Shown piece by piece: positions 2,005 to 50,979 of a stretch of 64,000 nt of DNA. Source of the DNA: Lotus japonicus (lineage: Eukaryota; Streptophyta; Magnoliopsida; Fabales; Fabaceae). A model generated the notes under the pieces. The model ran no database searches and was not told the DNA's origin. It saw only the letters and a program-made list of their open reading frames with translations. Position 1 is the stretch's first letter. Each line of letters begins with the position of its first letter. The DNA lies in the NCBI RefSeq assembly GCF_012489685.1, contig NC_080043.1:61869920-61933919 (forward strand). Direction: 5' to 3'. The translations under genes were made by a program, and so were the position numbers.

Positions 2005-2006
2005 AT

Positions 2007-13022: not shown

Positions 13023-13508
13023 CTAAAAGGGAAGATTGGCCCTATAACTATTGTATCTGGCCCTAAGAGGCTCCATGTGCCTTAAGACATCTTCTTGTTG
13101 GGTTTCCAGTAGCGATTTCTCCTGTCGAAGATCCAGCTCCTCACGAGCGGTGGTGGAAAGCCTGTCCACTAAGGCGTTCAGAGCTCCCACACTCCCCTCA
13201 GGGTTCACTTGATTCAGAGCAGCCCTCAACGCTTCGAATTCCTCCATCTTCTCATCTATTTGGTGTTCAGCAAAGAACACTCGAGCCGTGAGTTTCCGGT
13301 GTTCTTCATACAGGGGCACCGCTTCATGCAGAAGGCCCAGAAACTCCAGGAGAGGGGTTTTTACAGAGGCAATAATATTCCTCTGCAGAAGCTGGTTGAT
13401 GAGCCCAGTAAGCTCTTCAGCCAAAGAAAGGAAGGAATGTAACTCCCAAAATAGGTCTTGGTCAAAGGCCAAGCTCCGGATCTGATTAAGAATACGACGG
13501 CTAGCCAT
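13023..13508 (-). CDS. Gypsy1 small antisense gene: 161-residue helical protein
   Basis: A single uninterrupted frame on the strand opposite gag-pol. The start has a strong plant context (AGCCATGGCT). The protein is almost entirely predicted helix with heptad-like hydrophobic spacing, no membrane segment and no cysteine, so it is probably an intracellular coiled-coil or adaptor. It begins MASRRIL, has LAFDQDLF near residue 13, VKTPLLEFL in the middle, and ends RANLPF. It resembles in layout the 130-residue antisense proteins of Copia1 (20105-20497) and Copia2 (50979-50587). It lies downstream of and co-directional with the large antisense gene, 454 bp away, and is followed by AATAAA. No TATA box is obvious. 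Its biochemical function is unknown. Tat elements such as maize Grande are known to carry antisense ORFs. Confidence 0.75.
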   Translation of the reverse strand: MASRRILNQIRSLAFDQDLFWELHSFLSLAEELTGLINQLLQRNIIASVKTPLLEFLGLLHEAVPLYEEHRKLTARVFFAEHQIDEKMEEFEALRAALNQVNPEGSVGALNALVDRLSTTAREELDLRQEKSLLETQQEDVLRHMEPLRARYNSYRANLPF

Positions 13509-13961
13509 GGCTAAGGGAGGTTGTCAAAAACAGGAAGGGAATTCTGGAAAAGAAGTAAGGAAGAGTTTGAAGAAGTTACTGAAAAGAAGTAACCAAAAAC
13601 GCTCTATTCATCTTATGGTTACACGCCACGTAAATCACCACTACCATCGTAAATGGCTTTGGCTTTTAATGGACAAAGACTTTCATTGAATCAAGAAAAC
13701 GTGGTGTAGGATGGCAATAAATTGGCTTATTTCCCAGAAACCAAGCAACGACTACATAAAGGGCGCGATGGAGTTTGAACGGCGCAACAATAGTGAATAA
13801 CCGTCAGAATAAATGCATAGTGGAAACTGAAAAGATTTGGCAAATTAAATGTCAAATTATACGGCCTACGTGCCAGAAACACTGTTGAAAATTACATGCA
13901 CATTGGCATCGAAAGCCATGGTTAGAATAGTGCCATCATTACACACTGATAAGAGAAAGTC

Positions 13962-16900
13962 TTAAAGTAGAAATTTAAAAGAATTCAAGCGATCAGCAAA
14001 GGTAGCAATCTTGGCATCGAGATCCTTCTTCATGGCCTGTTCAACCTCCAAATCCTTGATAACATCTTTTGTCGAGATGATCAGAGCTTTGGATTCCTTA
14101 GTAAGCGCATCCAATTGAGCTTTCACAGCAGGGCCTTCCTCGACCAAATCAGCTCGCTTCTTCTCCAACTTAGTAATCTCTCGATGCAGCTCCTCAAGTT
14201 TAGTGTCGACATCAGAGATTTCATCTGCAACTAAAACCTTCCTAGCAGTAAATTTCTTGAAGTCTTCTTTCATCGCTGCAACTTGAGCTTTACCAGAAGA
14301 GACTTTTGCTTCCTTAAGACTAACAGCTTGGCCAACGTCCTTGACTTGATGAAAAGTGGCTAAAGCATCCACTAAGAAAGATTGAAGGTTGGCCATAGCA
14401 GCAGCCTGATGAGAGTCGAGCTTTTGACCAAGCAGGAAGACAAGCAATTCCTTAGCAGCATGACTCACTTGGGGGTCAACTCGAATCCGGTCGAGGAATC
14501 CGCTGTCGAAAACGATAGCCTTCAGCCGACCCATGCTCTCCTCAATTTGCTGAAGGTCGGCCACCCCACTAGATTGAGCAGTCTCAGCAGTGACATCAGC
14601 TTGATGGGGTGGAGAATCCCATTCCAAGGTGCCATCGAGAAAGCCATCCAAAGCTGCCAATGGGTCTTCCTCAAATAAAGTATCAAGCTTTTCACTGGAC
14701 ACATGAGATGAAGAGCCACCCTTGGCTTGAGGCGAAAGTTGCACAGTGGCAGTCGACTTTGGAGGAGGCATGGGGTTATCATCCTTGCTAGGAAGAGCTT
14801 CTGCTTCACGAATGGGAGATGTTGCACCTTGAGTCTCCTACAAGAAAAAATCAGGAAAGCTTCTTTAATACCTTCTTGGATAAAATAAGATGCACAGTTA
14901 AGGGACCGACAGAACGTCGAAAAGTATAAAGGTACCTGGCAAGTAGACCCCTTGGAAGGGCTTGAGTTGGTCGAGCTCTTGGAACGGTGAGGAGATTTAT
15001 GACCAGATTTGCTCCTAACCTTCCTTCTCCCCTCAGATGTCGAGGTCTTTCTAGCCGAGGATGCGGCCTTGGGAGGCTTCTCGACACCCTCAGCTTTGGA
15101 TTTTGCAGGGTTGGGAACTGGAGAATTTTCATGGGATGGAGGATTAGAAATGGAATGCTCATGGACGTCAGCCTGAGGAAAAGAACAAGACATAATCAGA
15201 CTAGGAAATCACAGATCAAAATGTCACAAGGCATTCTCGAAAATGGAAAACATACCTGAATAACGGCATCACCGCCACCTTCTTTGCCATCGCCTTCAGG
15301 CTGAGCATCAGACACCAGTGTAGAAGCCTTGCTAGCTGTGGAAGTACCAGCCCCTTTGGCTTTCTTTTGGCCAACCGAAGCAGCAGGTTTAACCTTCCTT
15401 TTTCGGCCCTGTCGAAGAAAACTTTAGTCGAAACCCCAAAGAGGCCAAAAAGAAAAGGAAAAGCTAAAAGGAAAATACCTTAAGTTTGTCAGCAAGGCTG
15501 ACATTATCGTCCTCATCATCATCATCATCCTCAATCACAACTGGCTTGTCCTTAGAAGAATGAGCCACCAGAGAAATAACTTGAGGAGCCGGTTGGGTAA
15601 TGACTTCAGCTGCAAACAGAAAGTGAAATTAAGAGGTAAAATAGGAAAACCTAGGCCAAGTCGAAATATTACCTTGACCAATACGCATGTTCAGCGATAT
15701 TTGGTTGAAGATTTCGACGGGCACATGATACGGAAAGTTCCATAAGTGGTACTTGGTCGAAGTCACTCGCTTTCGAGGAGGAAGAGCTTGATTGGCCAAC
15801 ACATTTATATTTACATGGTCAACCCATTTGGGCAAGACCGGTGGAAAGGCCAATGCAAACCTACTCGTAGGCAAAGACGGGAACTTAAAGCCAGTTTTTC
15901 GAATAACAAAAGATAGACCTTCCTCACCAGGAGGAATAACTAACTTGGATTTTTTGGCTTTAAATTCCCATTTTTGCCTTAATACTTGAGCTGCTTTCGC
16001 AACCGTATCTCGAAGGCGAAGAGTTGGATAATATACCACACCAAAGAACTCTTGAAAGGATCGAATTTCTGCCAGGTGCATACCTTTGGTCTTCTTGAGA
16101 TCCTGCTTCTGCAAAAGAAAAGCATCTGTCATGCATTGAAGACAATCTACGAGGGGCTTCGAAATCTGGGCCCAATACTCAGACCACCAGGCTTTGAAAG
16201 CGTTAGTAGCATAGTACAAAGGAGCGTAGGTGAAGGGGCTCAGGTTGAGAAGTTTCTTGTTATAGAAATGAACAGTCGTGTCAAAAGCAGAAGCCCTCTT
16301 AATAGCCCCGGGGTACAAGACAAGACTCTTGTCGAACAAAGTGTTGGGCAGAGCTTGGCTAAGCCCAAACTGTCGAGAAACCAATTGAGGGTTGTAGCCA
16401 CATAAAGTGTAATCACTGCTAGCAAAGCCTACAGTTAAGACCCTAGGAGAAAGGATGGTCCTCCAGAGTGTAATGTGATGTTCTTTGGGCAATGCAGAAT
16501 CAGAAGCATTAGGGTAAGAATTCCTCAGCCAGAAAGGGCCACGAATAGCCTTGCTATAAGGAGAGAAACTGGAGCGATAATGCTTCAGCTCAAGAAACAT
16601 GGTAAAGTACTTTCTGAAATCAGCTTCAAAACTCGACGCATCATAAGCAGGGGTCAGGGTCTCGAGCCTATGGGCATCAATCCTGGTGTTAGAAACAGCT
16701 GGGGGATTATCTTGTACCGGCAGGAGAGATTCGAAGACCGCATTCAACCAAAGTTGAAATAGCCAAAGAGGTCCAGCCGCATTCAGAGAAATAGTCTTGG
16801 TATTCCGGATATCCTCGACAGCTTCATTCAGCATTTGATAAAGGTTGCCAAGAACAAGCCTAGCCATAGCGAGTTGTCGACCCTCGTGGAGTAAATTGGC

Positions 16901-17692
16901 TAAAGGTAAAAGCTTGGCAGGTATACGCAAAGACTTGGTGCAAAAAACATAAGCAGACAGCCAATACAACAAGAACGCGACATGTTCAGCATCCGACACC
17001 TCACCACTCTCGACATAATGGTCCTTAATAAATCGACTAAATGAAATATTGTCAGTGGGAACCGAAATGGGGTTAGCAGTTGCAGGCGCAGAGTGATAAT
17101 CGTCACCAATGGGCCATAATCCAGTGATGGCAGCAACATCCAAGAGGGTGGGAGTAATCATGCCAAAGGGAACATGAAGGCAATTAGTAGACCTCTCCCA
17201 AAAATAAAGCGCACTCAATAGCATAGCAGGGTTATACGAAATTTGCGATCTCGACAGCTGAATCAAGTCGAGAATCCCGACATCCTTCCAGTGTTGCCTC
17301 TTGTCTTCCTCAACCCTATCTAACCATTTCAGGTAGGCTTTGTCGTTAGCAGAAGGGTTAGGAGGAGCTGAACAAAAAGCTCGTTTTGGGTCGGTAAGAA
17401 ATGGCATACGGTAAGAAGGTTGGAATGCCAAAATAAGCTCCTCTCCCCTAACACTAGGGTGAAATGACTCATGTTCTTCAGGAAGACTATTGGGCCTATC
17501 ATGCTTCACTACTTTCAAAGGACCCAAAATGGCGCGTAAAGTACAATTAACAGAGAAAGGAATGAGTACCTGGGATTTCCAGATAGCCCTCTTCTCCGCT
17601 TCATTGGGAGGTTCCGGGATTGCCACGCGCTTGGATTCATCCAACTTAAGCTCAGTGGCCAACGGAATGGTTTGCTCAGGATCGGAAGCCAT
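13962..17692 (-). CDS. Gypsy1 large antisense gene: PMD-like + coiled-coil protein, five exons
   Basis: Exons 17692-15673, 15609-15479, 15408-15256, 15172-14936 and 14837-13962 are joined by introns of 63, 70, 83 and 98 bp. All introns have GT-AG ends and the phases agree (one base carried over the first junction, then zero). The product is about 1,138 residues. Exon 1 holds a plant mobile domain-like region (about residues 120-500; LDLIQLSRSQISYNPAML, then FGMITPTLLDVAAITGL), a fold known from MAIN/MAIL1 proteins and from transposable elements. Exon 2 is acidic. Exons 3-4 are basic and Ser-rich (GRKRKVK, RRKVRSKSGHK), so nuclear entry is likely. Exon 5 ends in a long coiled coil. An upstream in-frame Met at 17803 lies too close to the TATA box (17809-17817), so 17692 is preferred. 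No lesion was seen. Confidence 0.8.
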
Positions 17693-17808
17693 TGAAGGAA
17701 ACGATAGGTATTCCGGAGAAAACGGAAGAAGATGAAGTGAGAACTTTGGGGGAAGAAGCTGAAGGTTTGGGGAAAAAAGTAAAGTTTGAACAAGAACTGT
17801 CAAGAGGG

Positions 17809-17817
17809 TATTTATAA
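17809..17817 (-). promoter_or_regulatory. TATA box of the large antisense gene
   Basis: On the minus strand this reads TATAAATAC, about 117 bp before the chosen Met at 17692. That allows a transcript start near 17780 and a short leader. It supports an independent antisense promoter in the element's 3' region. Confidence 0.6.
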
Positions 17818-18096
17818 GCAGAGAGGCAAACGGAACTCAGGCCGCATTGTGCAGTAATTTATAAAATTTGGGGTCCAAGTGATTATTTTATTAGCTAACT
17901 CATGTCATTTCTCAGCTTTTTGACATAGATGAAATCATGGCCCTAAAAAGGCTATAACTGTCAGCTAGTGGAAAGACATCAGACGTTATGGCTACTGATT
18001 GGACCTGAGGATCGAACGGTCAAGAGCACAAAGTATTTGAATCGTTGAGATTGAACGGGTGCGATCAAAAATGCTTGGTGTCTTCAAGCTAAAGCA
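17818..18096. other. Presumed upstream promoter region of the antisense gene
   Basis: This non-coding Gypsy1 sequence separates the antisense gene from the Copia1 insertion at 18097. The rest of the original spacer, including the polypurine tract (30222-30237), now lies 12 kb away on the other side of Copia1. Only about 280 bp of native upstream sequence remains next to the antisense TATA box. Confidence 0.5.
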
Positions 18097-19304
18097 TGAA
18101 GGTATGAAAAACGGTAGAAAGGGGGGTTTGAATAACGTTTTCAGTATAAAACTTCCACCTTAAAGATTTTGACAAATCTTTCGAGAACTTAAGTGCTAAA
18201 GATAAGAGATAGAAAAGCACACAAGGATTTTATCCTGGTTCACTTGATAAATCACTCAAGCTACTCCAGTCCACCTGTTAAGGTGATTTCTTCCTTCTTA
18301 GAATGAAGGCAATCCACTAATCAGGTAAGAGTTACAACTGCACTTGAAACCTACAAGTGACTAACAATTACACTGACTTAGCTCACACTAAGATTCACTC
18401 TCTTAGTCTTCTCTAGGATCCGATCAACCTTGATCTCCTAAAGGAACTAAACAAACTGTTTATCAAAGAATTGTTTACAAGAGATTTGCTTCTAAAAAGC
18501 TAATAGTAAACTCAATGAATTTCAGATGAAAGAAAAACTTAGAAGAATTTAAGATTGTCTTGCGCGTATGTGAATGCTTCTAGCCGTTTCTTTCAGTCTT
18601 CAGCCTCTTTATATACTCCAAGGATTAGGGTTGAGCGTTGCATGGGAAATGCTACCGTTGGAGGGCAGTTCTGGAAAATCCAGCTTCTGCTGTGTCTGAG
18701 ACTGTTAGGTAGGTCGTCAGGATAGTACATATGCTTTTGTACTTGGATAGCGACGCGACCTTTAAACCTAGGAGACTTCTGATCAGGGGAATGCTTCATA
18801 TTGGAACTTGTGAAGCCGGTTGATCAGAGTCAGAGGGAAAGCCCAGATCCTCTGACCATTGTTTCTTCTGATTCTGAACTCAGAGGGAAGAACATGGTCT
18901 TCAGAGTATCTTGCTTCTGGACATCAGAACTTCACTAATCAGCTTCTGGATCTTCAGAGTCTTCTACACCATCAGAACATCTGAGCCTTCAGTGTTTCTT
19001 GGTTATCAGACTTTCTGGATCTTCAGAACTTCTAGTGACTGAGTCCACATCAGAGTTAGTATAACTTCAGAACTTCTGAAGCTTTTCCACTGTTCATACT
19101 GAACATGGTGAATGCGAAAGCGTTGCTTGGGTTGCTCTTTATACACAGTGCTTCTGATTTGTGTGAGATTGAGTTGAGGTCAGAGCCTGCAAATAGCACA
19201 CTCAGAAAAACACGTTAGAGTACCACAATTGTTCATATCAAAAGGTTAACTTGTAATCATCAAAACATAGAGTTGTACTACTAGATCAAAACTTTGATCT
19301 TACA
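18097..19304 (-). repeat. Copia1 3' LTR
   Basis: A 1,208-bp repeat, nearly identical to 28995-30203. In the element's direction it runs TGTAAGATC...CATACCTTCA. It is dense in short words such as CAGAAG, CTTCTG and CTCTGA. Confidence 0.95.
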
Positions 19305-20045
19305 ATCTCCCCCTTTTTGATGATGACAAAACTAAGATTTTTGATGAACAATTCTTAAACATTAAACTGAATTCACTCAGAGTTTAGAGATATAGAATAA
19401 TACTTATCCTGATGTGAATAGTTTATCTTGCATCTCTGAATTCAAGTCACTGCTTGATTCTGAGCTTAGCTCCCCCTGAATCTAATACTTGATGAAAACG
19501 TTAGTAAAGTCTAGATTCTGAGCTAAATGATATAAGAGTTCAGAGAGAAAAACTTATGACATAGATGAAAATCGAGTAATCAGAGCGCATAAGTAATCAG
19601 AGTCACGGACAGGGTATCAGAGTCTTGGGTATCAGAGTCAACTTAGAATCACTTCAGAAGAAGTGAAATGTATTCCTTGTATTTGCCCAGTGACACATCT
19701 ATGGTCATGAAGGTGGAACTCTTAAATTCTCCAAAAGAAAAAATAAATCACACTAACACATCTTACACATCAAAAACTGGGTTTACTCCCCCTTTTTGTC
19801 ATAAGCAAAAAGCTTGGGGTGTGAAAAACTTAGCTTGAAGTACAAGGTACTCCCCCTTAGAGAAGGTCTAAGTTTAAAGGAAAAGAAAATGATGCAAGAA
19901 TCAGAGTTAGGCGAAATAAATAGAAGAGTTAATGCAAGAGAAGAACGTTTACCACCGGTCAAGTGAGTAAAGAGAAGGGTCAGTTACCAAGAACTTAACC
20001 TCGAGAAACCGTAGGAGCATTAACTTTCAGAGAGAAAGTGAAGCC
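19305..20045 (-). other. Copia1 3' non-coding region with multiple polypurine tracts
   Basis: This 740-bp stretch has no ORF. On the minus strand it carries four purine tracts of the AAAAAGGGGGAG type: at the LTR edge (about 19306-19318), near 19470-19477, near 19787-19797 and near 19851-19856. The same four occur at matching places in Copia2. Repeated polypurine tracts next to the 3' LTR are a described signature of Sireviruses. Confidence 0.75.
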
Positions 20046-20054
20046 TATATAAAG
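20046..20054 (+). promoter_or_regulatory. TATA box of the Copia1 small antisense gene
   Basis: TATATAAAG lies 51 bp before the ATG at 20105. Copia2 has the same nonamer 53 bp before its ATG (minus strand, 51040-51032). Confidence 0.7.
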
Positions 20055-20104
20055 TGTTGGAGAGAAAGGTAAGCTTCACACCTCGAACAAGTTTCAGTAA
20101 GAAA

Positions 20105-20497
20105 ATGGCATCATACATCGTAGCACTAGAAGAGCTGAGGAAGAAGGCCTTTGAGGAGGACTTGTTCCTTAACATCAGGCATCCAGAGGGTACAACGACC
20201 ATCGCGGAGCTGACACGGACACTGCTGGAAGAGGACCTGCGTCCAGAGGTGAAGAGAGACCTGAGGGAATTTCTTGCCTTCGTGGAGGAGGTGCAAGAAC
20301 TCAGCCGGCTTGAACTCAAGCTGCTGGAAGAAAAAGAGAGTTTGGAAGAGAAGCTCAAGACCGCAGAAGAGATTCTGGAGAGGAATGAGCTAAAGGACAG
20401 GCTCAACAACATCCAGCATGCACTGGAGCGTCTGGAGAAGGATAGGTCAGAGCAGCGCCAGGAGTGCAGAAGAATGAGGAGGGATCCTCCATTCTAG
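20105..20497 (+). CDS. Copia1 small antisense gene: 130-residue coiled-coil protein
   Basis: This intact ORF lies opposite to gag-pol. The Met at 20105 is chosen over the in-frame Met at 20054 because the latter overlaps the TATA box, and because the Copia2 homologue also has exactly 130 residues from this Met. The two copies align without gaps; I count 27 differing residues, many conservative (K/R, E/D, I/V, S/T). The sequence begins MASYIVALEELRKKAFEEDL, is rich in Glu, Lys, Arg and Leu, is strongly coiled-coil, and ends RRMRRDPPF. There is no signal peptide or membrane segment. An AATAAA follows at 20564-20569. The gene converges tail to tail with the envelope-like gene, about 220 bp away. 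Function is unknown. Confidence 0.8.
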   Translation: MASYIVALEELRKKAFEEDLFLNIRHPEGTTTIAELTRTLLEEDLRPEVKRDLREFLAFVEEVQELSRLELKLLEEKESLEEKLKTAEEILERNELKDRLNNIQHALERLEKDRSEQRQECRRMRRDPPF

Positions 20498-20563
20498 ACT
20501 TTTAGGGAAAGAATGTATGATGTAAACATAAAGAATGTATGATGTAAGCATAAAGATATGATG

Positions 20564-20569
20564 AATAAA
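20564..20569 (+). terminator. Polyadenylation signal of the Copia1 small antisense gene
   Basis: AATAAA lies 67 bp after the stop codon. The Copia2 copy also has one, 45 bp after its stop (minus strand, 50542-50537). Confidence 0.6.
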
Positions 20570-20719
20570 AGGATGTTTGCAAACATATGTGACACAAATA
20601 TATATAGATATGCATAGATAATCACAAACGAACAAAGTAGAATAAGTAAATAAAAAGAAACAGAGTTTAACAAAAATAAAACAATGTTAAAGAAAAAGAA
20701 AAATGAAGAGATCCTAAAA

Positions 20720-23576
20720 CTAAGGTTTATCAGTTCGTCGCAGAAGTTCCATCATCATGTGCTTCATCTCAATCAGCATGGATTCATGAATGTCAAGACG
20801 CTGTTCCATGATGTCGAGTCTGGATGAGCTTGACTGAGCAGAACCGGAAGGAACATTCTGAGCAGCTTGAGAATCTGGAATGGAAGCAGAAGCAGCAGAG
20901 TAAACACTACTGGTGCAAGTGCTTGGCATCTAAGAGCTTCAGCCTCAGCCTCAAGTCGTTCTGCCTCTAATCGGGCTTGTTCAGCTTGAGCTGCTGCTTG
21001 ACGTGCAGCTTCTTCTGCTTGAGCTTTCTTTCTCTTGGCTTCTTCAATAGCTTCAAGAAGCTTATGTCTCTGTTCTTGTTCATGAAGAGCCACCCTTCGA
21101 GCAAACCTTTGCTTTGCAGGCTCAATGCTCTGACTTCCCTCTGCATGCAGGAGCTGCATCATAATTGGAACTTGAGCCACTAGCCAAGTGCCCAGATTGT
21201 TCCACTCATCAGCCACACGTTCAGCATTCTCACTGAGGTCAGTCTGACCGTGCACATTGCGTAGCATCAAAGAAGCTTGATGATAGAAAGTATTGATGCA
21301 TTCAGAGAGAGATGTGGGTCGGAGGTGAGTGTAAGGGATTATGGAGAGGTTGGTTTCAGGAGAGGCTGGGTGATTGCTGCTGTGAGCTTCAGAGGCACCT
21401 TGTGGAGAGCCAATGTTAAACGTTTGAGCATTGGGTTCAGAGGTTCCAAGGTGAGGTTCTGAAGTTTCAACCAGAGGATGGGGTGATCTAACCGAGGATT
21501 GGTTAGACACTGATTGTTCGGGTTCAGGTTCTGGTTGAATAGGCTCTTGTTGGTCTGGGGCAGGGTGAGCTTGTTGAGCCAAAGGGTCTGCCTCTTGTAA
21601 AGGATTGGCCAAGATAGGTTCATCTGGGTCAACTAGACGTTCAGGTCTAGGGCCAGGATATCTCCTAGGGCTTGGACAAGTGAGGTAATACTCTTCTAAG
21701 GTAGACACCTTTTCTTTGCTGACCTCCATGAATTTTCTGATGGATTCAGAGTTATTGGAGGGAGAAGAATCAGCAACATTGGTTGGGAAGGATACAGGTG
21801 TAAAGGCTGTGGAAGAGTCTGTATCCGTGGGTTTGAGAGCCAGACGTTCTGATGCTCTTGGGACAGAGTGATCAGAGGTTCTGGGCTCAGGTTCTGTGTG
21901 GGTAGGCTCTGGTTGTGCATGAATGATGGGTTCAGAAGATAATGGGTTGTACTGAATGGTAATGGGAGAGGTAGGTTCTTCTGACCTAGAGGGTTAGTTC
22001 TGAAGCAAATTCCAGAGAGGTGCTTCAGTAGGGGAAGGTTGAAAGAATGAAGATCTTGGAGACTGTGGTGGAGAGGTGGTTTGAGCAGCTGGTTGGGATT
22101 CAGGAATAGGAGTGAGGGGATTTGAGGAGTGTTTGAGCATGGCAGATATAGGGAGTGCATCAAATAAATTCAAATCATCATCAGAAGCAAGTGCAGACTT
22201 ACTTGAATGTGCTGATGATCTAGTAACTCTGGCAGGAGGTTCAGTCCTTCTGACCACTTCAGCAGCTGGTTCCACCCGAGTAGGCTTCACCACGATTCTG
22301 ACCTGCTTCTTCTTCTTCTTAGGAGGACCATCCTCATTATCACTATCATCACCATCATCAGGCTTTCTCTTCTTCTTTTTGACCAGAGGGACATCTGATT
22401 CCTCAGAAGATTCTTCTAGGATCATCTTCCTCTGAGCTTTCTTCTTGGGAGGAGAAGGAAACTCTGGAGCTGGCGGCAGTCTGCTGAAGAATTCATCAAG
22501 ATCAATTTCGAATCCTTGAGCCCTTAGGTCTTCAACATAGCACCTAATGGCGTCAGGATTGTCTGCCTGAGTCCACAGAGGGTAGTCATTCAGAGGATCC
22601 TTCTACTTCTGATTTCAGAAGATGTGTCTTCACGAGCAGGGGCGATTTTCTTCTGGACCAAGCCCATCTTCTTCAGAGAATTTGCAGTGAAGACATCACT
22701 GACAATGGTGGTCAGATCCTCTACACACCCAGCATGGACCAGATCTTGCACCAGGTTGCTTTCAATGAAAAAGTCTGAGAGCAGTCTCCCAAAGGGGATG
22801 TACTTGATGGCTGACTTGATGGAGGCAGTGGTGCGAGACTTCCGGATACATTCCTTCAAGTAGGAGAACAGGAAGTAGGGAAGGCAGATCTTCTTCTGGT
22901 CTTGGATGAAGAACAACATCACCTTCTGGTTGAAGTTGATGTAGTCTGGAGAACTGCCCTTTGGTCTCTGGTTTATGCAGTGGAGCAGGATCTTGTGCCA
23001 GATTCTGAGCTTAGGATGAAGGTCCATCACCTTGTAATTCGTCTTGCCCGGTTTGTAATTGGTGTACAGGGCCTCGTTGATTGTATTCTTGGTGCTGGGT
23101 TTCAGCTTCGATTCCGTGAGTTGGAAACGATACCCAAAAGCAGTGTCTGCACCCAGCAAATTCACGAAAGACTTCTCCGTGATGATGATCTTTCTTCCAA
23201 GCACGTGAGATACCACCTGAGTATCATCACAGTCGGCGTGCTTCCAGAATTCCTTTACCAGTCTATCATACACCGGTCCTCGAAGTCTGTTGAAGTAATT
23301 TCCCCAACCTTGAACTTGGACTTCAGGACGAAGATCATACCCATTTGTAGCCAGGTTGTCGAGGTCGAATCTCCATTCTGCCAGGACTTGGAGTTCCTCA
23401 GGAGCAAATACGCAGTGAACGACACAGCCCCGTTCTGCAATTGGAACAATCTGCTCTTGAGCTTGACCTTGATCTTGTGTCGGATTCTCAGGGCCCCTTT
23501 GACCCGTTGCTAGACCGACTACCATGTGAGGGAACTGAGGTGCATCTGCAGTAGATCTTCTGGTTTGACTCACCAT
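20720..23576 (-). pseudogene. Copia1 envelope-like gene, broken by two frameshifts and one stop
   Basis: It is homologous to the intact Copia2 gene (47492-50371). The Met at 23576 matches the Copia2 start. The first 330 or so residues form the conserved globular domain found in legume 'envelope-like' or 'putative plant transposon' proteins. A one-base loss near 22595 shifts the frame. A stop at 21994-21996 interrupts the Pro/Ser/Glu-rich middle. Another one-base loss near 20900 shifts the tail after the coiled coil. The lysine-rich stretch (KKKKKQVRIVVK) near 22325-22290 would direct a product to the nucleus. I see no signal peptide and no clear transmembrane helix, so the name 'envelope-like' rests on position and family usage. 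Confidence 0.85.
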
Positions 23577-24019
23577 TTTTGAAGCGGTTGAAGGTTTGAG
23601 GTAGAAGATGAAGGTTGAAAGATGAAGAGAGATCGAGAGAGAAATCGAGGATAAGCGGTTTTTGAAAAGCAGAGAGAGCGAGAGTGAAAACCGGAGTGAA
23701 AGAGATCGTGTGTGTATAGTGGGTTTTGACAAATAACCGTTGTTGATTCAAAAAGCAATTTAAGATCAACGGTTGAAAATTAAAGATAGGTAGTAACAGT
23801 AAATACACAAATCACACTCAGGAGAGAAGCACATCTACACGCAATCATAACAGACTGTCACACGGGCACAAGGAACTATGCATCAGAAATACTGACACAC
23901 GTGTTGTTGTCTCAGCTTCAGAGTCAGTACCAGTGGGTACACACACTCTGATTGAGTTACCTTCTGGACTAGACATCTTCTGATCAAGAAGTATCATAGT
24001 CAGAGGTTCTGATCCATCA

Positions 24020-27000: not shown

Positions 27001-27124
27001 CGCCTCCAGGCTTAAGTTTCAGCTCTCGGAACATACGCCTTTCTCCCGTCATGTGACGCGAGCATCCACTGTCCAGATACCATGATTGGTGTTTCAGTGG
27101 AGCTATCAAGGATATCTGCAACAT
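24020..27124 (-). CDS. pol: Copia1 pol: protease, integrase, RT, RNase H
   Basis: An intact 1,034-residue frame. The protease core DSGCSRH is near residue 18. The pre-integrase zinc motif region (WHRRLGHAN) is near 145, the integrase core (HIDLFGP; DDYSRW) near 210-320, RT from about 570 with catalytic YVDD near 720, and RNase H from about 885 ([16 protein letters not shown]). This is the Ty1/copia order. The first Met at 27124 lies inside the end of gag in the +1 frame, so the true pol N-terminus is probably made by ribosomal frameshifting from gag. No stop interrupts the frame, which makes this copy potentially able to supply enzyme. Confidence 0.93.
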
Positions 27125-28922: not shown

Positions 28923-28980
28923 TGTTTTTCACACCGGCCCGGATCACTGAACACTGTTAGGTGTGGTAATCAGAACTTGC

Positions 28981-28992
28981 GCTCTGATACCA
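28981..28992 (-). other. Copia1 primer-binding site
   Basis: On the minus strand it reads TGGTATCAGAGC, matching the 3' end of plant initiator Met-tRNA, the usual primer for Ty1/copia elements. It begins two bases after the 5' LTR. Confidence 0.9.
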
Positions 28993-28994
28993 AT

Positions 28995-30203: not shown

Positions 30204-30221
30204 AAGCAGTCGACAACCAAC

Positions 30222-30237
30222 ATTTTTGGGGGGCAAC
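30222..30237 (+). other. Gypsy1 polypurine tract
   Basis: ATTTTTGGGGGGCAAC directly precedes the 3' LTR. A G-run next to the LTR is the expected plus-strand primer site. Confidence 0.6.
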
Positions 30238-31050: not shown

Positions 31051-31055
31051 CTAGT

Positions 31056-42077: not shown

Positions 42078-42079
42078 AT

Positions 42080-42091
42080 TGGTATCAGAGC
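42080..42091 (+). other. Copia2 primer-binding site
   Basis: TGGTATCAGAGC, complementary to the 3' end of initiator Met-tRNA, two bases after the LTR. Confidence 0.9.
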
Positions 42092-42149
42092 GCAAGTTCT
42101 GATTACCACACCTAACAGTGTTCAGTGATCCGGGCCGGTGTGAAAAACA

Positions 42150-44057
42150 ATGGCTACCACCAGTGAAACTCAAAGAGATGGTTACAATGCAAAGCCTCCC
42201 ATGTTCGACGGTCAAAGGTTCGAATATTGGAAAGATAGACTTGAAAGTTTCTTTCTGGGTTTTGATGCAGATCTCTGGGATATTATTGTGGATGGCTATG
42301 AGCGTCCAACTGATGAAGAAGGAAAGAAGATCCCAAGGTCAGAGATGACTGCAGATCAAAAGAAGCTTTACTCACAACATCACAAAGCTAGAGCAATTCT
42401 TCTAAGTGCTATCTCTTATGAAGAGTACCAGAAGATTACAGATCGTGAGTATGCAAAGAGCATTTTTGAATCCCTGAAGATGTCTCATGAAGGAAACAAG
42501 AAAGTCAAAGAATCAAAGGCATTGTCCTTGATCCAAAAGTATGAATCCTTCGTCATGGAGCCAAACGAGTCCATTGAAGAAATGTTTTCCAGATTTCAGT
42601 TGCTTGTAGCTGGAATACGACCTCTCAACAAGAGCTACACAATGAAAGATCATGTCATAAGGGTCATCAGAAGTCTTCCTGAAAGCTGGATGCCCTTGGT
42701 GACTTCAACAGAGCTCACAAGAGATGTTGAGCGTATGAGTTTAGAAGAACTCATCAGCATACTGAAGTGCCATGAGCTGAAGCGCTCAGAGATGCAAGAT
42801 CTGAGGAAGAAGTCAATAGCCTTAAAATCAAAATCTGAGAAGGCTAAAGCAGAGAAGCCAAAAGCTCTTCAAGCTGAAGCAGAAGAATCTGAAGAAGCAT
42901 CAGAAGAGTCTGATGAAGATGAGCTGACTCTGATCTCTAAAAGACTCAACCGTATCTGGAAGCATAGGCAGAGCAAGTACAAAGGCTCTGGAAAGGCCAA
43001 AGGAAAGTCTAAATCCTCAGGTCAGAAGAAGTCCTCAATTAAGGAAGTCGCATGCTTTGAGTGCAAGGAATCAGGGCACTACAAAAGTGACTGTCCAAAA
43101 TTAAAGAAGGACAAGAGGCCAAAGAAGCACTTCAAGACTAAGAAAAGTCTGATGGTGACTTTTGATGAATCAGAGTCAGAGGATGTTGACTCTGATGGTG
43201 AAGTCCAAGGACTCATGGCCATTGTCAAAGACAGAGGAGCAGAGTCAAAGGAAGCTGTTGACTCTGACTCGGAATCAGAAGGAGACCCTAATTCAGACGA
43301 TGAAAATGAGGTATTCGCTTCTTTCTCAACCTCTGAACTGAAACATGCTTTGTCTGATATTATGGATAAGTATAATTCTTTATTTTCTAAGCATAAGAAG
43401 CTGAAAAAGAACTTACCTGCTGTCTCTAAAACTCCTTCTGAACATGAGAAAATCATTTCTGATTTGAAAAATGATAACCATGCTTTAGTGAACTCTAACT
43501 CTGTGCTTAAGAAACAAATTGCTAAGTTAGAAGAAGTTATTGCCTGTGATGCCTCTGATAGTAAGCATGAATCTAAGTATGAAAAATCTTTTCAAAGATT
43601 CCTGGCAAAAAGCGTAGATAGAAGCTTGATGGCTTCATTGATCTATGGCGTGAGCAGAAATGAAATTCATGGCATTGGCTATTCTAAATCTATTAGAAAT
43701 GAGCCTTCTATGCCTAAAGCTAAATCCTTATATGAATGCTTAGTTCCCTCTAGTACCATATTGCCTGATCCTTTACCTGCTGAAGTTGCTAAACCTCCTC
43801 TTAAAAAGGGATCTTTCTCCATGTCTAAATATCATGCAAAAATTCCTTTACATTATCATGTTGAGAAACCCAAGGTGATCAGAACCTCTGGGGTAACTAA
43901 CAAGAGAGGACCCAGAAAGTGCGTACCTAAGGATAAGATTATCTATGTTGCAGATATCCTTGATAGCTCCACTGAAACACCATTCATGGTATCTGGACAG
44001 TGGATGCTCGCGTCACGTGACGGGAGAAAGGCGTATGTTCCAAGAGCTAAAACTTAA
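42150..44057 (+). CDS. gag: Copia2 gag
   Basis: A 635-residue intact frame closely matching Copia1 gag. It has the UBN2-type gag domain (about residues 20-230), a CCHC knuckle ([14 protein letters not shown]) near residue 302, a Ser/Asp/Glu-rich stretch and a coiled coil near 435-475. The end overlaps pol by 113 nt in a different frame. In the pol frame a TAA lies upstream near 43898, so any frame change must fall between there and the protease motif near 43990. Confidence 0.93.
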   Translation: MATTSETQRDGYNAKPPMFDGQRFEYWKDRLESFFLGFDADLWDIIVDGYERPTDEEGKKIPRSEMTADQKKLYSQHHKARAILLSAISYEEYQKITDREYAKSIFESLKMSHEGNKKVKESKALSLIQKYESFVMEPNESIEEMFSRFQLLVAGIRPLNKSYTMKDHVIRVIRSLPESWMPLVTSTELTRDVERMSLEELISILKCHELKRSEMQDLRKKSIALKSKSEKAKAEKPKALQAEAEESEEASEESDEDELTLISKRLNRIWKHRQSKYKGSGKAKGKSKSSGQKKSSIKEVACFECKESGHYKSDCPKLKKDKRPKKHFKTKKSLMVTFDESESEDVDSDGEVQGLMAIVKDRGAESKEAVDSDSESEGDPNSDDENEVFASFSTSELKHALSDIMDKYNSLFSKHKKLKKNLPAVSKTPSEHEKIISDLKNDNHALVNSNSVLKKQIAKLEEVIACDASDSKHESKYEKSFQRFLAKSVDRSLMASLIYGVSRNEIHGIGYSKSIRNEPSMPKAKSLYECLVPSSTILPDPLPAEVAKPPLKKGSFSMSKYHAKIPLHYHVEKPKVIRTSGVTNKRGPRKCVPKDKIIYVADILDSSTETPFMVSGQWMLASRDGRKAYVPRAKT

Positions 44058-47049
44058 GCCTGGAGGTGAAGTTGGCTTTGGTGGCAACGAAAAAGGTAAA
44101 ATTGTTGGTACTGGTACTATTTGTGTAGATAGTAGTCCATGCATTGATAATGTTTTATTGGTAGACGGCTTAACTCATAACTTATTGTCTATAAGTCAAT
44201 TAGCTGACAAGGGTTATGATGTTATCTTTAATCAAAAGTCATGTCGGGTTGTAAGTCAGATCGATGGCTCTGTTCTGTTTAACAGCAAGAGGAAGAACAA
44301 CATTTATAAGATCAGATTATCTGAGTTGGAGGCTCAGAATGTGAAGTGCCTTCTGTCTGTTAATGAAGAGCAATGGGTATGGCATAGACGGTTAGGGCAT
44401 GCCAGTATGAGAAAGATTTCTCAGCTGAGCAAGCTAAACCTTGTCAGGGGCTTGCCCACTCTGAAGTTCTCTTCAGACGCTCTTTGTGAAGCATGTCAGA
44501 AAGGTAAATTCACAAAAGTCCCTTTCAAGGCAAAGAATGTTGTCTCAACCTCAAGGCCGTTGGAACTTCTGCATATCGACCTTTTTGGACCAGTGAAAAC
44601 TGAGTCTATAGGTGGCAAGAGATATGGGATGGTCATTGTTGACGACTATAGCCGCTGGACATGGGTAAAGTTTCTAACCCGCAAGGATGAGTCTCATGTT
44701 GTGTTCTCTACCTTCATAGCCCAAGTGCAAAACGAGAAGGCTTGTAGGATTGTGCGTGTCAGAAGTGACCATGGTGGAGAGTTTGAGAATGACAAGTTTG
44801 AGAGTCTGTTTGATTCCTATGGAATTGCACATGATTTCTCTTGTCCCAGAACTCCTCAACAAAATGGTGTTGTTGAGAGGAAGAACAGAACTCTTCAGGA
44901 GATGGCTAGAAACATGCTCCAAGAAACTGGCATGGCTAAGCACTTTTGGGCAGAGACAGTAAACACAACGTGTTACATTCAGAACAGAATCTCGGTGAGA
45001 CCAATTCTGAATAAGACTCCCTATGAATTGTGGAAGAACATAAAACCCAACATTTCTTACTTTATTCCTTTTGGTTGTGTTTGTTATGTTCTTAATACTA
45101 AGGATAGATTGCATAAATTTGATGCTAAGTCTTCTAAATGTCTATTACTTGGTTACTCTGAGAGATCTAAAGGGTTTAGATTTTATAATACTGATGCTAA
45201 AACTATTGAAGAATCTATTCATGTTAGATTTGACGATAAACTTGACTCTGACCAGTCAAAGCTAGTTGAGAAATTTGCAGATTTAAGTATAAATGTTTCT
45301 GACAAAGGCAAAGCTCCAGAGGAAGCTGAGCCAGAGGAAGATGAACCAGAAGAAGAAGCTGGTCCCTCTGATTCACAAACTCTGAAGAAGAGCAGAATCA
45401 CTGCAGCTCATCCTAAGAAATTGATTCTGGGCAACAAAGACGAACCAGTCAGAACCAGATCAGCCTTCAGACCCTCTGAAGAGACCCTACTTAGTATGAA
45501 AGGATTGGTGTCCTTAATTGAAACCAAGTCAATTGATGAAGCTCTTCAGGACAAGGACTGGATTCTGGCCATGGAAGAAGAATTGAATCAATTCTCCAAG
45601 AATGATGTCTGTAGCCTAGTGAAGAAGCCTGAAAGTGTCCATGTAATTGGAACAAAATGGGTGTTCAGAAACAAGTTGAATGAGAAAGGAGATGTAGTCA
45701 GAAACAAGGCAAGGCTTGTCGCCCAAGGCTACAGCCAGCAGGAAGGAATAGACTACACAGAAACATTTGCTCCAGTAGCAAGACTAGAAGCAATCAGACT
45801 GTTGATCTCTTTCTCTGTGAATCACAACATAATTCTACATCAGATGGATGTCAAGAGTGCCTTCCTAAATGGATACATATCAGAGGAAGTCTACGTTCAT
45901 CAACCCCCAGGTTTTGAGGATGAGAAGAACCCAGACCATGTGTTCAAGTTGAAGAAATCACTCTATGGTCTGAAGCAAGCTCCTAGAGCATGGTATGAGA
46001 GACTCAGCTCATTCCTTATGGAGAATAAGTTTGTGAGGGGTAAAGTAGATACAACTCTCTTTTGCAAAACTTACAAAGATGATATCTTAATTGTGCAAAT
46101 TTATGTTGATGATATTATATTTGGTTCTGCTAATCAATCTCAATGCAAAGAATTTTCTGAGATGATGCAGGCTGAATTTGAGATGAGTATGATGGGAGAA
46201 CTTAAGTACTTTCTGGAAATACAAGTTGATCAAACACCAGAAGGAACATATATCCATCAGAGCAAGTACACTAAAGAACTTCTGAAGAAGTTCAATATGC
46301 TGGATTCTACAGTGGCTAAGACTCCATTGCATCCTACATGCATTCTGGAGAAAGAAGATGCAAGTGGTAAAGTCTGTCAGAAGTTCTGTCGTGGTATGAT
46401 AGGATCACTTCTATACTTAACTGCATCTAGGCCAGATATATTGTTTAGTGTTCATTTATGTGCTCGTTTCCAATCAGATCCAAGGGAAACCCACTTAACA
46501 GCTGTTAAGAGGATCCTAAGGTATCTGTAAGGTACCACTAACCTTGGCTTGATGTATAAGAAAACATTAGAGTATAAGCTTTCAGGTTATTGTGATGCTG
46601 ATTATGCTGGAGATAGAACAGAGAGAAAAAGCACTTCTGAAAATTGTCAATTTCTGGGAAGCAACTTAGTCTCATGGGCAAGTAAGAGGCAATCAACCAT
46701 TACACTATCAACTGCAGAGGCAGAATATATCTCAGCATCAATATGCAGCACTCAGATGCTCTGGATGAAACATCAGCTGGAGGATTATCAAATCCTAGAG
46801 AGCAATATCTCAATCTATTGTGATAACACTGCTGCAATTTCATTGAGTAAGAATCCTATCTTACATTCAAGGGCAAAGCACATTGAGGTAAAGTATCACT
46901 TTATTAGAGATTATGTACAGAAGGGCGTACTTCTTCTGAAGTTTGTTGATACGGACCATCAATGGGCAGATATCTTTACAAAGCCCTTAGCAGAGGATAG
47001 ATTTAATTTCATTCTGAAAAATCTGAATATGGACTTTTGTCCAGCATGA
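43945..47049 (+). pseudogene. pol: Copia2 pol with one nonsense codon in the RT-RNase H region
   Basis: The frame has the same 1,034-residue length and domain order as Copia1 pol: protease DSGCSRH, pre-integrase WHRRLGHAS, integrase, RT with YVDD, RNase H with [13 protein letters not shown] at 46528-46530 follows RYL, where Copia1 has AAA (Lys). The frame is otherwise open to 47049. RT is complete but RNase H would be lost, so this copy could not reverse-transcribe on its own. A further substitution, LEIQVD for LGIQVD in RT, is also visible. Confidence 0.92.
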
Positions 47050-47491
47050 AGATGGATCAGAACCTCTGACTATGATGCTTCTTCATCAGAAGATGTCTAG
47101 TCCAGAAGGTAACTCTATCAGAGCTTATGTACCCATTGGTGCTGACTCTGAAGCTGAGACAGTAAACGTGTGTCAGTATCTATGACACATAGTTCCTTGT
47201 GCCCGTTTTGACAATCTGTTGTAATGAGTGTTGATGTGCTTCTCTCCTGCGTGTGATAGGTGTATTTACTGTTACTATCTATCTTTAATTTTTAACCGTT
47301 GATTTTAAGTAGCTTTTTGAATCAACAACGGTTGCTTGTCAAAACCCACTATACACACACAATCTCCTACACTTACGGTTTTACTCTCTCTCTCTTCAGT
47401 TTTTCAAAACTTCTTACCCACGATCTCTCTCTCGCTCTCTATTCATCCTTCACCTTCATCTTCAACCCAAAACCTTCAACCGACTCCAAAA

Positions 47492-50371
47492 ATGGTGAGA
47501 CAAACCAAAACTGAAGCTGCGGATGCAACCAGGTTCCCTCACATGGTAGTAGGTCAAGCTACAGGCCAATTGGGTCCTGAGAACCCAAATCAAAGTCAAG
47601 CGTCAGAAAAGATGATTTCAATCGCAGAGCGGGGCTGTGCCGTTCACTGCGTTTATGCTCCGAAAGAACTCCAAGTACTTGTAGAGTGGAGATTCGACCT
47701 GGACAACATTGCTGCAAATGGGTATGACCCGCGTCCTGAAGTTCAAGCTCAGGGATGGGAAGAGTACTTCAACAGGCTCAGAGGACCAATTTATGACAAA
47801 TTGGTCAAGGAATTCTGGAAGCATGCCGACTGCGATGACACTCAAGTGGTCTCCTACATTGCTGGAAGGAGAATCATCATCACTGAGAAGTCGATTGTGA
47901 ATCTGCTGGGTGCAGACACTGGAAATGGGTATCGATTTCAACTGACAGAATCGAAGCTGAAACCCAGAACCAAGGATGAAACCAACAAGACTCTATACAC
48001 CACCTACAAACCGGGCAAGAGTGACTACAAGATGGTGGATCTTCATCCCAAACTCAGAATCTGGCCCAAGATTCTTCTTCACTGCATCAATCAAAGGCCG
48101 AAGGGTAGCTCTCCTGACTACATCAACTTCTTCCAGAAGGCGATGTTATTCTTCATTCAAGATAAGAAGAAGATCTGCCTCCCCTTCTTATTGTTCTCTT
48201 ACCTGAAGGAATGTATCAGGAAGTCAAGAACTACTGCCTCCATCAAGTCTGCCATCAAGTACATCCCCTTTGGGAGATTGCTTTCAGATCTCTTCATTGA
48301 AAGTAAATTCGTAGAAGATCTGATCAATGCAGGCTGCACAGAAGATCTGTCCACAATAGTCAGTGATGTCTTCACTGCCACATCCTTGAAGAAGATGGGC
48401 TTGATCAAGAAGAAAATTGCCCCTGGTCATGAAGATACGTCTGCTGAAATCAGGCAAAGAAGGGTGCCTCTGGATGACTTCCCTCTGTGGACCCAAGCAG
48501 ACAATCCAGAAGCGATATTGTGCTACATTGATGGTCTGAAGCAACAAGGATATGAAATTGATGTAGATGAGTTCTTCAGAAGTTTGCCACCAGCTCAAGA
48601 GTTTGACTCTCCTCCCAAGAGGAAAGTTCAGAGGAAGATGGTCTTAGAAGAATTCTCTGAGGAGTCTGATGTTCCTCTGAAGAGGAAGAAGAAGGCTGAT
48701 CAGCCTAAGAGGAAACATGCTGAAACCACCAAGCCAGATGATGGTGACGATGGCGATAATGAAGATGGTCCTTCTCCTCCCAAGAAGAAGAAGAAACAAG
48801 TCAGAATCGTGGTGAAGGCTACACGTGTGGAACCTGCTGCTACAGTCATCAGGATGGAGACTTCTACTAGAGTGACTCGGTTTGCCGTGCGTACAAGTAA
48901 GTCTGCTATCATTGAATCTGATGATGATTTAAATTCTATTGATGCACTTCCCATTTCTACCCTTCTCAAACGCACATCCACCCAACTCACTACTATCCTA
49001 GAGTCTCAACCTGCTGTCCAAACCACATCTCCACCAAATTCCCCAATGTCTTCCTTTTTCCAACCTTCTCAACAAGAAGCCCCTCTGTGGAATATGCTTC
49101 AAACCCCACGTCCAGATGAACCAACCTCACCCATCACAATTCAACAAGAACCCATAATTCTTGAACCCTCTGAACATGAACCAATCATTCCTCCACAACC
49201 AGAACATGAACCCAGAACGTCTGATCACTTTGTCCCCAGAGCATCAGAACGTCCGGTTGCCAGAACCACTGATACTGATCCTTCCACTTCCTATACTCCT
49301 GTATCATTCACAATCAACGTTGCTGACTCCTCACCTTCCAACAACTCTGAGTCACATCGTAAATTCATGGAGGTCAGAAAAGAAAAAGTGTCTGCCATCC
49401 CAGAGTATTACCTTACGGTCCCAAGCCCTAGGAGATACCCTGGACCTAGACCAGAACGTCTAGTTGACCCAGATGATCCTATCCCGGCTGACCCTTTGCA
49501 TGAGGCAGACCCTTTAGCCCAACAAGCTCAACCTGACCCTGTCCATCAAGAGCCAGTTCAACCAGAACTAGAACACTCTGTGTCTAACCACTCTTCGGAT
49601 AGATCACCCCATCCTCTGGTTGAAACTTCTGAACCTCACCTTGGAGCCTCTGAACCAAATGTCCAAACCTTTGACATTGGCTCTCCTCAAGGTGCTTCTG
49701 AGGCAAACAGTAGCAATCACCCAACCTCTCCTGAAACCAACCTCTCTATTGTTCCCTACACATACCTCAGACCAACCTCTCTCTCTGAGTGCATTAATGT
49801 TTTAAATCATGAAGCTTCATTGATGCTACGCAATGTGCAAGGTCACACTGACCTGAGTGAGAATGCTGAATCTGTTGCTGAAGAGTGGAATAGTCTGAGT
49901 ACTTGGTTAGTAGCTCAGGTTCCTATTATGATGAGGCATCTGACTGCAGAAAGGGATCAGAGGATTGAGGCTGCTAGGCAGCGGTTTACAAGGAGAGTGG
50001 CTCTTCATGAACAACAGCAAAGAAATAAGCTCCTTGAAGTTGTTGAAGAGGCCAGAAGAAAGGAAGAGCAAGCAGAGGAAGCTGCACGTCAAGCAGCAGC
50101 TCAAGCTGAACAAGCACGATTAGAAGCTGAGAGACTTGAAGCTGAAGCTGAAGCCATTAGATGCCAAGCACTTGCACCAGTGGTCTTTACTCCTGCTGCT
50201 TCTGCTTCCATTCCAGCTCATCAATCTGCTCAGAATGTTCCTTCTAGCTCCACACAGTCAAGCTCTTCCAGACTCGATCTCATGGAACAACGTCTTGATA
50301 CTCATGAGTCTCTGCTGATGGACATGAAGCAAATTCTTAAGGAACTTCTGCGTCGCTCTGACAAGCCCTAG
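47492..50371 (+). CDS. Copia2 envelope-like gene (intact, 959 residues)
   Basis: The open frame extends up to a Met at 47336, but the Met at 47492 (MVRQTKTEAADA) is preferred. The 52 upstream residues are translated from a CT-rich leader, and the Copia1 alignment starts well at this Met. Residues about 45-320 form a globular domain shared with legume 'envelope-like' or 'putative plant transposon' proteins. A lysine-rich nuclear-type signal (PPKKKKKQVRIVV) lies near 430. A long Pro/Ser/Glu-rich disordered middle runs to about 760. A coiled coil rich in Ala and Glu lies near 850-890, and a short helical end finishes the protein. There is no signal peptide or evident membrane helix, so a surface role is doubtful. 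The gene starts 440 bp after pol and needs its own or a spliced mRNA. Confidence 0.85.
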   Translation: MVRQTKTEAADATRFPHMVVGQATGQLGPENPNQSQASEKMISIAERGCAVHCVYAPKELQVLVEWRFDLDNIAANGYDPRPEVQAQGWEEYFNRLRGPIYDKLVKEFWKHADCDDTQVVSYIAGRRIIITEKSIVNLLGADTGNGYRFQLTESKLKPRTKDETNKTLYTTYKPGKSDYKMVDLHPKLRIWPKILLHCINQRPKGSSPDYINFFQKAMLFFIQDKKKICLPFLLFSYLKECIRKSRTTASIKSAIKYIPFGRLLSDLFIESKFVEDLINAGCTEDLSTIVSDVFTATSLKKMGLIKKKIAPGHEDTSAEIRQRRVPLDDFPLWTQADNPEAILCYIDGLKQQGYEIDVDEFFRSLPPAQEFDSPPKRKVQRKMVLEEFSEESDVPLKRKKKADQPKRKHAETTKPDDGDDGDNEDGPSPPKKKKKQVRIVVKATRVEPAATVIRMETSTRVTRFAVRTSKSAIIESDDDLNSIDALPISTLLKRTSTQLTTILESQPAVQTTSPPNSPMSSFFQPSQQEAPLWNMLQTPRPDEPTSPITIQQEPIILEPSEHEPIIPPQPEHEPRTSDHFVPRASERPVARTTDTDPSTSYTPVSFTINVADSSPSNNSESHRKFMEVRKEKVSAIPEYYLTVPSPRRYPGPRPERLVDPDDPIPADPLHEADPLAQQAQPDPVHQEPVQPELEHSVSNHSSDRSPHPLVETSEPHLGASEPNVQTFDIGSPQGASEANSSNHPTSPETNLSIVPYTYLRPTSLSECINVLNHEASLMLRNVQGHTDLSENAESVAEEWNSLSTWLVAQVPIMMRHLTAERDQRIEAARQRFTRRVALHEQQQRNKLLEVVEEARRKEEQAEEAARQAAAQAEQARLEAERLEAEAEAIRCQALAPVVFTPAASASIPAHQSAQNVPSSSTQSSSSRLDLMEQRLDTHESLLMDMKQILKELLRRSDKP

Positions 50372-50479
50372 TCTTAGGATCTCTTCGTTTTCTCTCTTAA
50401 CTTAGTTTTATTTTAACTTTTTTATTTTCTTTAAGTTACTTTAGTTGTTATGCTTTGTTCGTTGTTGTTTATCATTGCA

Positions 50480-50503
50480 CATATATATATATATATATAT
50501 ATA
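50480..50503. repeat. (AT)n microsatellite
   Basis: About a dozen AT dinucleotides in the spacer between the two convergent genes of Copia2. Copia1 has only a short ATATATAGATA at the equivalent place. Confidence 0.85.
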
Positions 50504-50536
50504 TTTATCACATTGTGTTTTCAAAATTTTCTTTCC

Positions 50537-50542
50537 TTTATT
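50537..50542 (-). terminator. Polyadenylation signal of the Copia2 small antisense gene
   Basis: AATAAA on the minus strand, 45 bp after the stop codon. Confidence 0.55.
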
Positions 50543-50586
50543 CATATCAATTCTGTTTTTACATCATACATTTTCTTTCCTAAACT

Positions 50587-50979
50587 CTAGAATGGAGGAT
50601 CCCTCCTCATTCTTCTGCACTCTTGGCGCTGCTCTGCCCTATTTTTCTCCAGACGATCCAAAGTATACTGGATGTTGTTGAGACTGACGTTTAGCTCATC
50701 CCTCTCCAGAACCTCTTCTGTCGTCTTGAGCTTCTTTTCTATGGTTTCTTTCTCTTCCAGCAGCCTCAGCTCAAGCTGGCTGAGTTCTTGAATTTCTTCC
50801 ACGAAGGCAAGGAATTCCTTCAAGTCATTCTTCAGCTCTGGACAAAGGTCCTTTTCAAGCAGTGTCCTCGTCAGCTCTGGTATGGTCTTTGTACCATCTG
50901 GATGTCTTATGTTAAGGAACAAGTCCTCCTCGAAGGCCTTTCTTCTGAGCTCTTCCAGTGCTACCATGTATGATGCCAT
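50587..50979 (-). CDS. Copia2 small antisense gene: 130-residue coiled-coil protein
   Basis: An intact ORF on the strand opposite gag-pol, the same length as the Copia1 homologue and gap-free against it (27 differences by eye, about 79% identical). Gag and pol are visibly closer between the two elements, so this gene evolves faster yet stays open. It begins MASYMVALEELRRKAFEEDL, has an EFLAFVEEIQELS core, and ends RRMRRDPPF. A TATA box on the minus strand (51040-51032) and AATAAA (50542-50537) bracket it. It converges with the envelope-like gene 215 bp away. Function is unknown; a dimerising helical protein is the most that the sequence supports. Confidence 0.8.
   Translation of the reverse strand: MASYMVALEELRRKAFEEDLFLNIRHPDGTKTIPELTRTLLEKDLCPELKNDLKEFLAFVEEIQELSQLELRLLEEKETIEKKLKTTEEVLERDELNVSLNNIQYTLDRLEKNRAEQRQECRRMRRDPPF

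Follow-up and report, generated by a model that had tools for sequence, protein, structure and literature searches.

Small antisense genes of probable common descent in a Tat-type Ty3/gypsy element and two Sireviruses of Lotus japonicus

Which plant retrotransposons carry genes on the strand opposite to gag-pol? Antisense open reading frames (ORFs) behind pol are a well-documented feature of Tat-type Ty3/gypsy elements, and 15 gypsy families of common bean are among the examples (PMC4093653). In the Tat, Retand and Ogre elements described in the literature, such ORFs lie between pol and the 3' long terminal repeat (LTR), for example GENE23 of Grande, the ORF of RIRE2, the TRP28 ORF of Retand, the plant mobile domain (PMD) ORF of Ogre and ORF2 of pvRetro13 (PMC7264820, PMC11963269, PMC6317226, PMC4093653). 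Their origin and function have been called unknown (PMC7264820, PMC11963269). Here we describe a 64,000-nucleotide stretch of the Lotus japonicus genome (NC_080043.1, positions 61,869,920 to 61,933,919; hereafter the window) in which a Tat-type element, Gypsy1, and two Ty1/copia Sireviruses, Copia1 and Copia2, carry small antisense ORFs in this same position. We call the Gypsy1 ORF gene B and the Sirevirus ORFs gene C, and conclude that they are very probably real, homologous genes. Unlike the known Tat antisense ORFs, genes B and C are short (161 and 130 codons), match nothing in Pfam, and have a copia element as one of their carriers. One published survey retained ORFs from 250 codons upwards (PMC6317226) and another those from 600 bp upwards, with shorter ones admitted if they had a TRP28 domain (PMC11963269), so that both would miss genes of 130-161 codons. 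The literature covered, which takes in few subscription papers, yielded no earlier description of a Sirevirus antisense gene or of an antisense gene common to plant gypsy and copia elements.

Parallels exist outside the Tat elements. In bdelloid rotifers, ORF3 types are common to LTR and Penelope-like retroelements, so that, as with B and C, one accessory ORF type occurs in distant classes, which the authors interpreted as exchange between elements; those ORFs belong to animals and include enzymatic ones, whereas here an antisense gene is found in plant gypsy and copia elements (PMC5408684). In SIRE elements, 74% have a sense ORF in the env position of the same 3' region (eORF-3'F; PMC6317226). 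Copia1 and Copia2 both have such an ORF, but gene C lies on the opposite strand, beyond it. HBZ of the human T-cell leukaemia virus (HTLV) is a functional parallel only, a small antisense-encoded protein proposed to regulate its element, and no sequence relation is claimed; the HTLV antisense promoter, unlike the signals of B and C, is inside the 3' LTR (PMC7264820, PMC11963269).

Gene B (P0001) occupies 13023..13508 on the minus strand, tail to tail with pol. Gene C is found at 20105..20497 on the plus strand in Copia1 (P0002) and at 50587..50979 on the minus strand in Copia2 (P0003), tail to tail with the env-position sense ORF. As the preliminary description of this locus had said, the three frames are open, run antisense to gag-pol, begin with MAS, end with PF, and contain the motifs AF..DLF and [VL]K..L.EFL. 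Each is placed after the last sense ORF of its element and before the 3' LTR. The element types that it had assigned are likewise borne out. Gypsy1 (1192..31050, plus strand; LTRs at 1192-2004 and 30238-31050, each 813 bp long and 99.1% identical to the other, target site duplication (TSD) CTAGT) is Tat-type, because its pol (9773..12796, plus strand; reverse transcriptase (RT), two RNase H-like domains and integrase by Pfam) carries a further RNase H domain, placed after RT-RNase H and ahead of integrase (RT_RNaseH 337-438, RVT_3 479-596, rve 759-854). Copia1 (18097..30203, gag-pol on the minus strand, TSD AAGCA) is nested in Gypsy1 and splits it, about 30 bp ahead of its 3' LTR. It shows the copia-type order in Pfam, with Retrotran_gag_2 and with integrase ahead of RVT_2. 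Copia2 (40867..52963, gag-pol on the plus strand, TSD CCTAG) is 92% identical to Copia1 in gag and 96% in pol. Sireviruses are defined by multiple polypurine tract (PPT) octamers in the linker that are rare elsewhere (PMC2829016), and by these octamers Copia1 and Copia2 are Sireviruses: a motif scan placed AGGGGGAG four times in each linker (Copia1, 19307..19857, minus strand, at 19307, 19470, 19786 and 19850; Copia2, 51231..51749, plus strand) and nowhere else in the window, in which 1.6 would be expected by chance.

Several comparisons argue for the homology of B and C. A blind search of 650 window ORFs with P0001 returned, after P0001 itself, the two gene C ORFs (E 1.1e-4 and 4.3e-4), followed by a match at E 2.3; similarly, a copia profile found gene B among the window ORFs at E 1e-3, with the runner-up at 0.52. 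When 43 Gypsy1 ORFs were compared with 94 copia ORFs, the antisense pair (1e-5, 4e-5) was outscored only by pol, whose genes are truly homologous (4e-7, 2e-6); the next match stood at 2e-3, and nothing convincing was found in common besides pol and the antisense gene. Shuffles of P0001 that kept its hydrophobic pattern reached the observed score in 8 (P0002), 4 (P0003) and 91 (P0005) of 5000 trials, and the mean score of the three targets in none of 5000. Once each family was expanded, the best B-C pair aligned end to end with a BLASTP E-value of 4e-8 (best of 1692 pairs), and permutations keeping the hydrophobic pattern reached the score of the families in 0/2000 and 0/500 cases; for the N-terminal part the counts were 0/2000 and 1/1000. 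The profile comparison that the preliminary description had suggested, carried out with B and C families expanded within their own genome, gave E-values, each for a single comparison, of 2.5e-4 (local) and 6.5e-6 (global). The env-position ORFs, gag and reversed C, used as controls, gave no signal.

Do B and C behave as genes? Copies were sought in the window's own genome (553.7 Mb; 65 contigs, among them six large ones of 137, 98, 96, 84, 68 and 68 Mb), and all copy-based results describe this one genome. Gene B had 948 first-look candidates; the best 150 scored are 83-100% identical, 149 of them span residues 1-161, and 139 are free of stops. Gene C had 4416 candidates with P0002 as query (best 150 scored: 95-100% identical, 147 without stops) and 4668 with P0003 (133 of the best 150 without stops); these open-frame shares are flattered by resting on the best-scoring copies. 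Genes B and C are under purifying selection. The ratio of nonsynonymous to synonymous differences (pN/pS) is 0.128 for B (27 open copies of 30 loci) and 0.196 for C (29 of 30); it is 0.152 among 47 B copies, 20 of them added and hand-picked for divergence among the stop-free of the 150, and 0.265 among 50 C copies, 20 hand-picked likewise and P0003 included, all with the reservation that choosing copies by protein score depresses pN. No such choice affects the two C genes of the window: they differ at 57 sites, distributed 17/8/32 by codon position, with a dN/dS of 0.23, a ratio as low as which arose in 1 of 2000 randomisations (0.0005); it is 0.39 over the whole open frame, its non-coding-start codons included. 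Furthermore, the coding parts of both genes align without gaps, next to 200-nucleotide flanks that average 5 to 37 gapped positions.

The surroundings of the two genes are equally regular. Gypsy pol lies downstream on the opposite strand at 29 of 30 B loci and the env-position ORF likewise at 29 of 30 C loci. A TATAWAW motif is present within 200 nucleotides upstream at 28/30 B and 29/30 C loci, mostly at -104 (B) and -59 (C) among the first 12 listed, against a background of 1.8% (B) and 0% (C) in 330 windows each, and AATAAA is present within 250 nucleotides downstream at 30/30 B and 29/30 C loci; these loci are related copies, so that the counts are not independent. In the window, the Copia1 gene C has the TATA-like TATATAAAG at 20046..20054 (plus strand, -59) and AATAAA at 20564..20569 (plus strand), and gene B is followed by AATAAA at 12979..12984 (minus strand). 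Because a TATA-like box and a poly(A) signal of their own are usual, B and C can probably be transcribed independently of the LTR. For the Grande ORF a promoter of its own has been reported, whereas for B and C the promoter evidence consists of TATA-like and poly(A) signals in the sequence. Against separate transcription stands the window's own gene B, in which the 200 nucleotides searched (13509-13708, minus strand) hold no TATA-like box.

How did one gene come to sit in two superfamilies? Between Copia1 and Copia2, identity is 96.4% in pol (pN/pS 0.10) and 79% in gene C, and gene C therefore changes faster than pol. Nevertheless, B shares 30-32% identity with C over 60-64 residues, compared with 25-26% over 161 residues in the best gypsy-copia pol segment. 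Since B and C are not less alike than pol despite the faster change of C, we infer lateral transfer or capture, which fits better than vertical descent from a gypsy-copia ancestor; the latter was set aside, as an ancestral gene would be expected to be far less alike than pol. Against this argument count the stronger E-value for pol against pol (4e-9) than for B against C (4e-5), pol being longer, and the identities of 31-33% reached by short, non-significant pieces of pol. We propose that a lateral move carried the gene from one superfamily to the other; the likeliest route is that a 3' module was captured or exchanged by recombination. The Sireviruses look like mosaics here: in 300-column windows, Copia1 and Copia2 are 90-97% identical up to about 23.9 kb and 47.17 kb, respectively, and 72-89% beyond, with a sharp step at 23850-23910 (Copia1) and 47160-47230 (Copia2), and their synonymous difference is 0.17-0.20 in pol and gag and 0.44-0.49 in the env-position ORFs. 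This step looks like a recombination or exchange of the 3' module, although a regional difference in rate may also account for it.

Alternatively, Tat elements and Sireviruses might each have captured the gene independently from one host family. Retrotransposon transduction of host genes is documented (PMC7264820), and element copies fill the lists of the best 150 matches, so host genes could not show up there. Two captures would, however, have to repeat the same antisense slot and the same layout, and a protein database that, judging by its matches, is mainly prokaryotic and metagenomic yielded no relative from outside these elements. P0001 had no relative there. P0002 had four matches, and the combined alignment A4 returned the same four; two of these entries, P0004 and P0007 (84-90% identical to the Sirevirus gene C), come from short contigs (561 and 483) attributed to Bradyrhizobium sp. 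TM233 and are probably plant DNA within a bacterial assembly. Likewise, P0001-P0003 matched nothing near any Pfam cut-off, and PF04195 (Transposase_28, TRP28) gave no match to them at E-values up to 10, in a program, HMMER, whose filters discard most weak matches. Viral contigs searched with P0001, alignment A2 and a piece of the Gypsy1 integrase, and genome contigs searched with alignment A2, yielded no relative; among PDB sequences P0001 had no match and alignment A2 a best E-value of 0.34. We consider independent captures unlikely and transfer between elements the likely history; that a Tat element was the donor and a Sirevirus the recipient is a doubtful refinement of it.

We propose that B and C are homologous accessory genes whose separate antisense transcripts would yield, apart from Gag-Pol, a small, helical and probably oligomerising protein that may regulate the element, or its silencing, in trans. 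This role is favoured by analogy with the nuclear protein of Grande and the retroviral antisense proteins, and we put it forward tentatively; for the explanation as a whole, in which homologous antisense genes, a lateral move and a regulatory product are combined, we judge the chances slightly better than even. The same gene history could also have produced a protein for particle assembly or transport. Small oligomerising helical proteins would suit such a task, and the predicted structure of B, a long helical bundle, matches BAR-like and translocator coils weakly and without significance. A separate antisense promoter would nevertheless be odd for a particle component, and the Grande antisense protein is nuclear (PMC7264820), which makes a structural role rather improbable.

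Could gene B have arisen within Gypsy1? The minus strand of this element bears two antisense genes, B and gene A, an ORF with a plant mobile domain (15629..17803, minus strand; PF10536, E 4e-37). Gene A appears to be a spliced gene that runs on the minus strand from about 17692 to about 13962, according to splice-like signals judged by eye and without joining of the exons, and its likely last exon, a coiled coil at 13962..14837 (minus strand) with limits inferred from such signals, lies upstream of B at 30 of 30 B loci. Gypsy1 thus resembles Ogre, in which 57% of elements have a PMD-bearing extra ORF (PMC6317226), a feature not exclusive to that lineage. Gene B may be distantly related to the coil at the C-terminus of gene A, a suggestion on which the tests are mixed. 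Permutation counts (1/200, 1/1000, 0/200 and 0/500) and a BLASTP E-value of 1.8e-5 (best of 705 pairs) speak for it. Against it, the gene A exon ranked 767 of 5001 with the profile of the B+C module, hhalign gave E 0.1, the N-terminal module alone gave 133/1000, and HMMER gave E 0.033 among 47. For gene C and gene A the permutation counts were 16/200, 63/1000 and 10/200, and 12 stretches beyond PMD exons, hand-chosen from 129 PMD matches, held no relative of B or C. If the kinship is real, then B originated within a Tat element and passed to the Sireviruses, in neither of which a PMD gene was noticed. In its fullest form, in which the C-terminus of the PMD protein was duplicated into a small gene with its own promoter that then crossed to the Sireviruses, and the coil would pair with PMD proteins of the elements or the host, this scenario appears quite unlikely. 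Separately, contig C6 of the same genome has at least seven PMD matches at 44.81-44.94 Mb, several among the best-scoring of the genome, perhaps a tandem cluster of host genes.

Convergence of two unrelated helical coiled-coil proteins is another reading of the similarity. A number of observations weigh against common descent. The hhalign probability of the B-C match reaches just 41-43% (local) and 68-74% (global), the B-C identities hold no excess of positions that are invariant in both families (p 0.28), the coil minus its last three residues is not significant (172/2000), and a control of C against gypsy pol gave 1/200, so that low counts can arise by chance. The common MAS start is weak evidence, as the probable start of the adjoining PMD gene is also MAS. 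The AlphaFold models agree with the earlier characterisation of the proteins as almost wholly helical: P0001, modelled alone (predicted local distance difference test (pLDDT) 85.9, predicted template modelling score (pTM) 0.71), has helices at 2-42, 50-100 and 107-158, and P0002, modelled with five sequences (pLDDT 81.5, pTM 0.46; first 30 residues poor), at 2-17, 33-41 and 47-126. In both models, a helix break just ahead of [VL]K..L.EFL falls at the same alignment point; the other helix boundaries differ, neither model matched a PDB structure at E <= 0.001, and no entry was common to the 50 listed for each. The preliminary description had named a missing profile match together with different folds as grounds for abandoning the shared family. 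With a profile match that is significant by E-value, though modest in probability, the shared family stands beside the element types and the antisense position, and the fold comparison adds no positive support. Nevertheless, a helical composition would hardly yield the full-length alignment, the hydrophobic-pattern permutations, the N-terminal signal and the blank controls described above, and we regard convergence as very unlikely. Finally, that the antisense transcript rather than a protein matters, through double-stranded RNA or interference with the sense transcript as proposed for such regions (PMC7264820), is highly improbable given the amino-acid-level selection on B and C and their gap-free coding parts next to gapped flanks.

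The window has other features as well. The env-position sense ORF of Copia1 (20773..21729, minus strand) matches no Pfam family above the cut-off. The pol frame of Gypsy1 stops at 12796, and pol-like sequence runs on to 12940 (12657-12940, plus strand). A large inverted duplication occupies 54516-63622, its arms 83-96% identical (for example, 57255-58064 and 59898-60697).

If two superfamilies do carry one and the same small gene in a matching antisense position, this would mean that accessory genes are exchanged between elements, and a selected function in trans would become more likely. Furthermore, if B and C derive from a PMD gene and pair through a common coil, then two superfamilies would manipulate one pathway. 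With 948 candidates for B and 4416 or 4668 for C, they form an abundant, largely intact family that is open to tests, and the size cut-offs of surveys can hide such small antisense genes.

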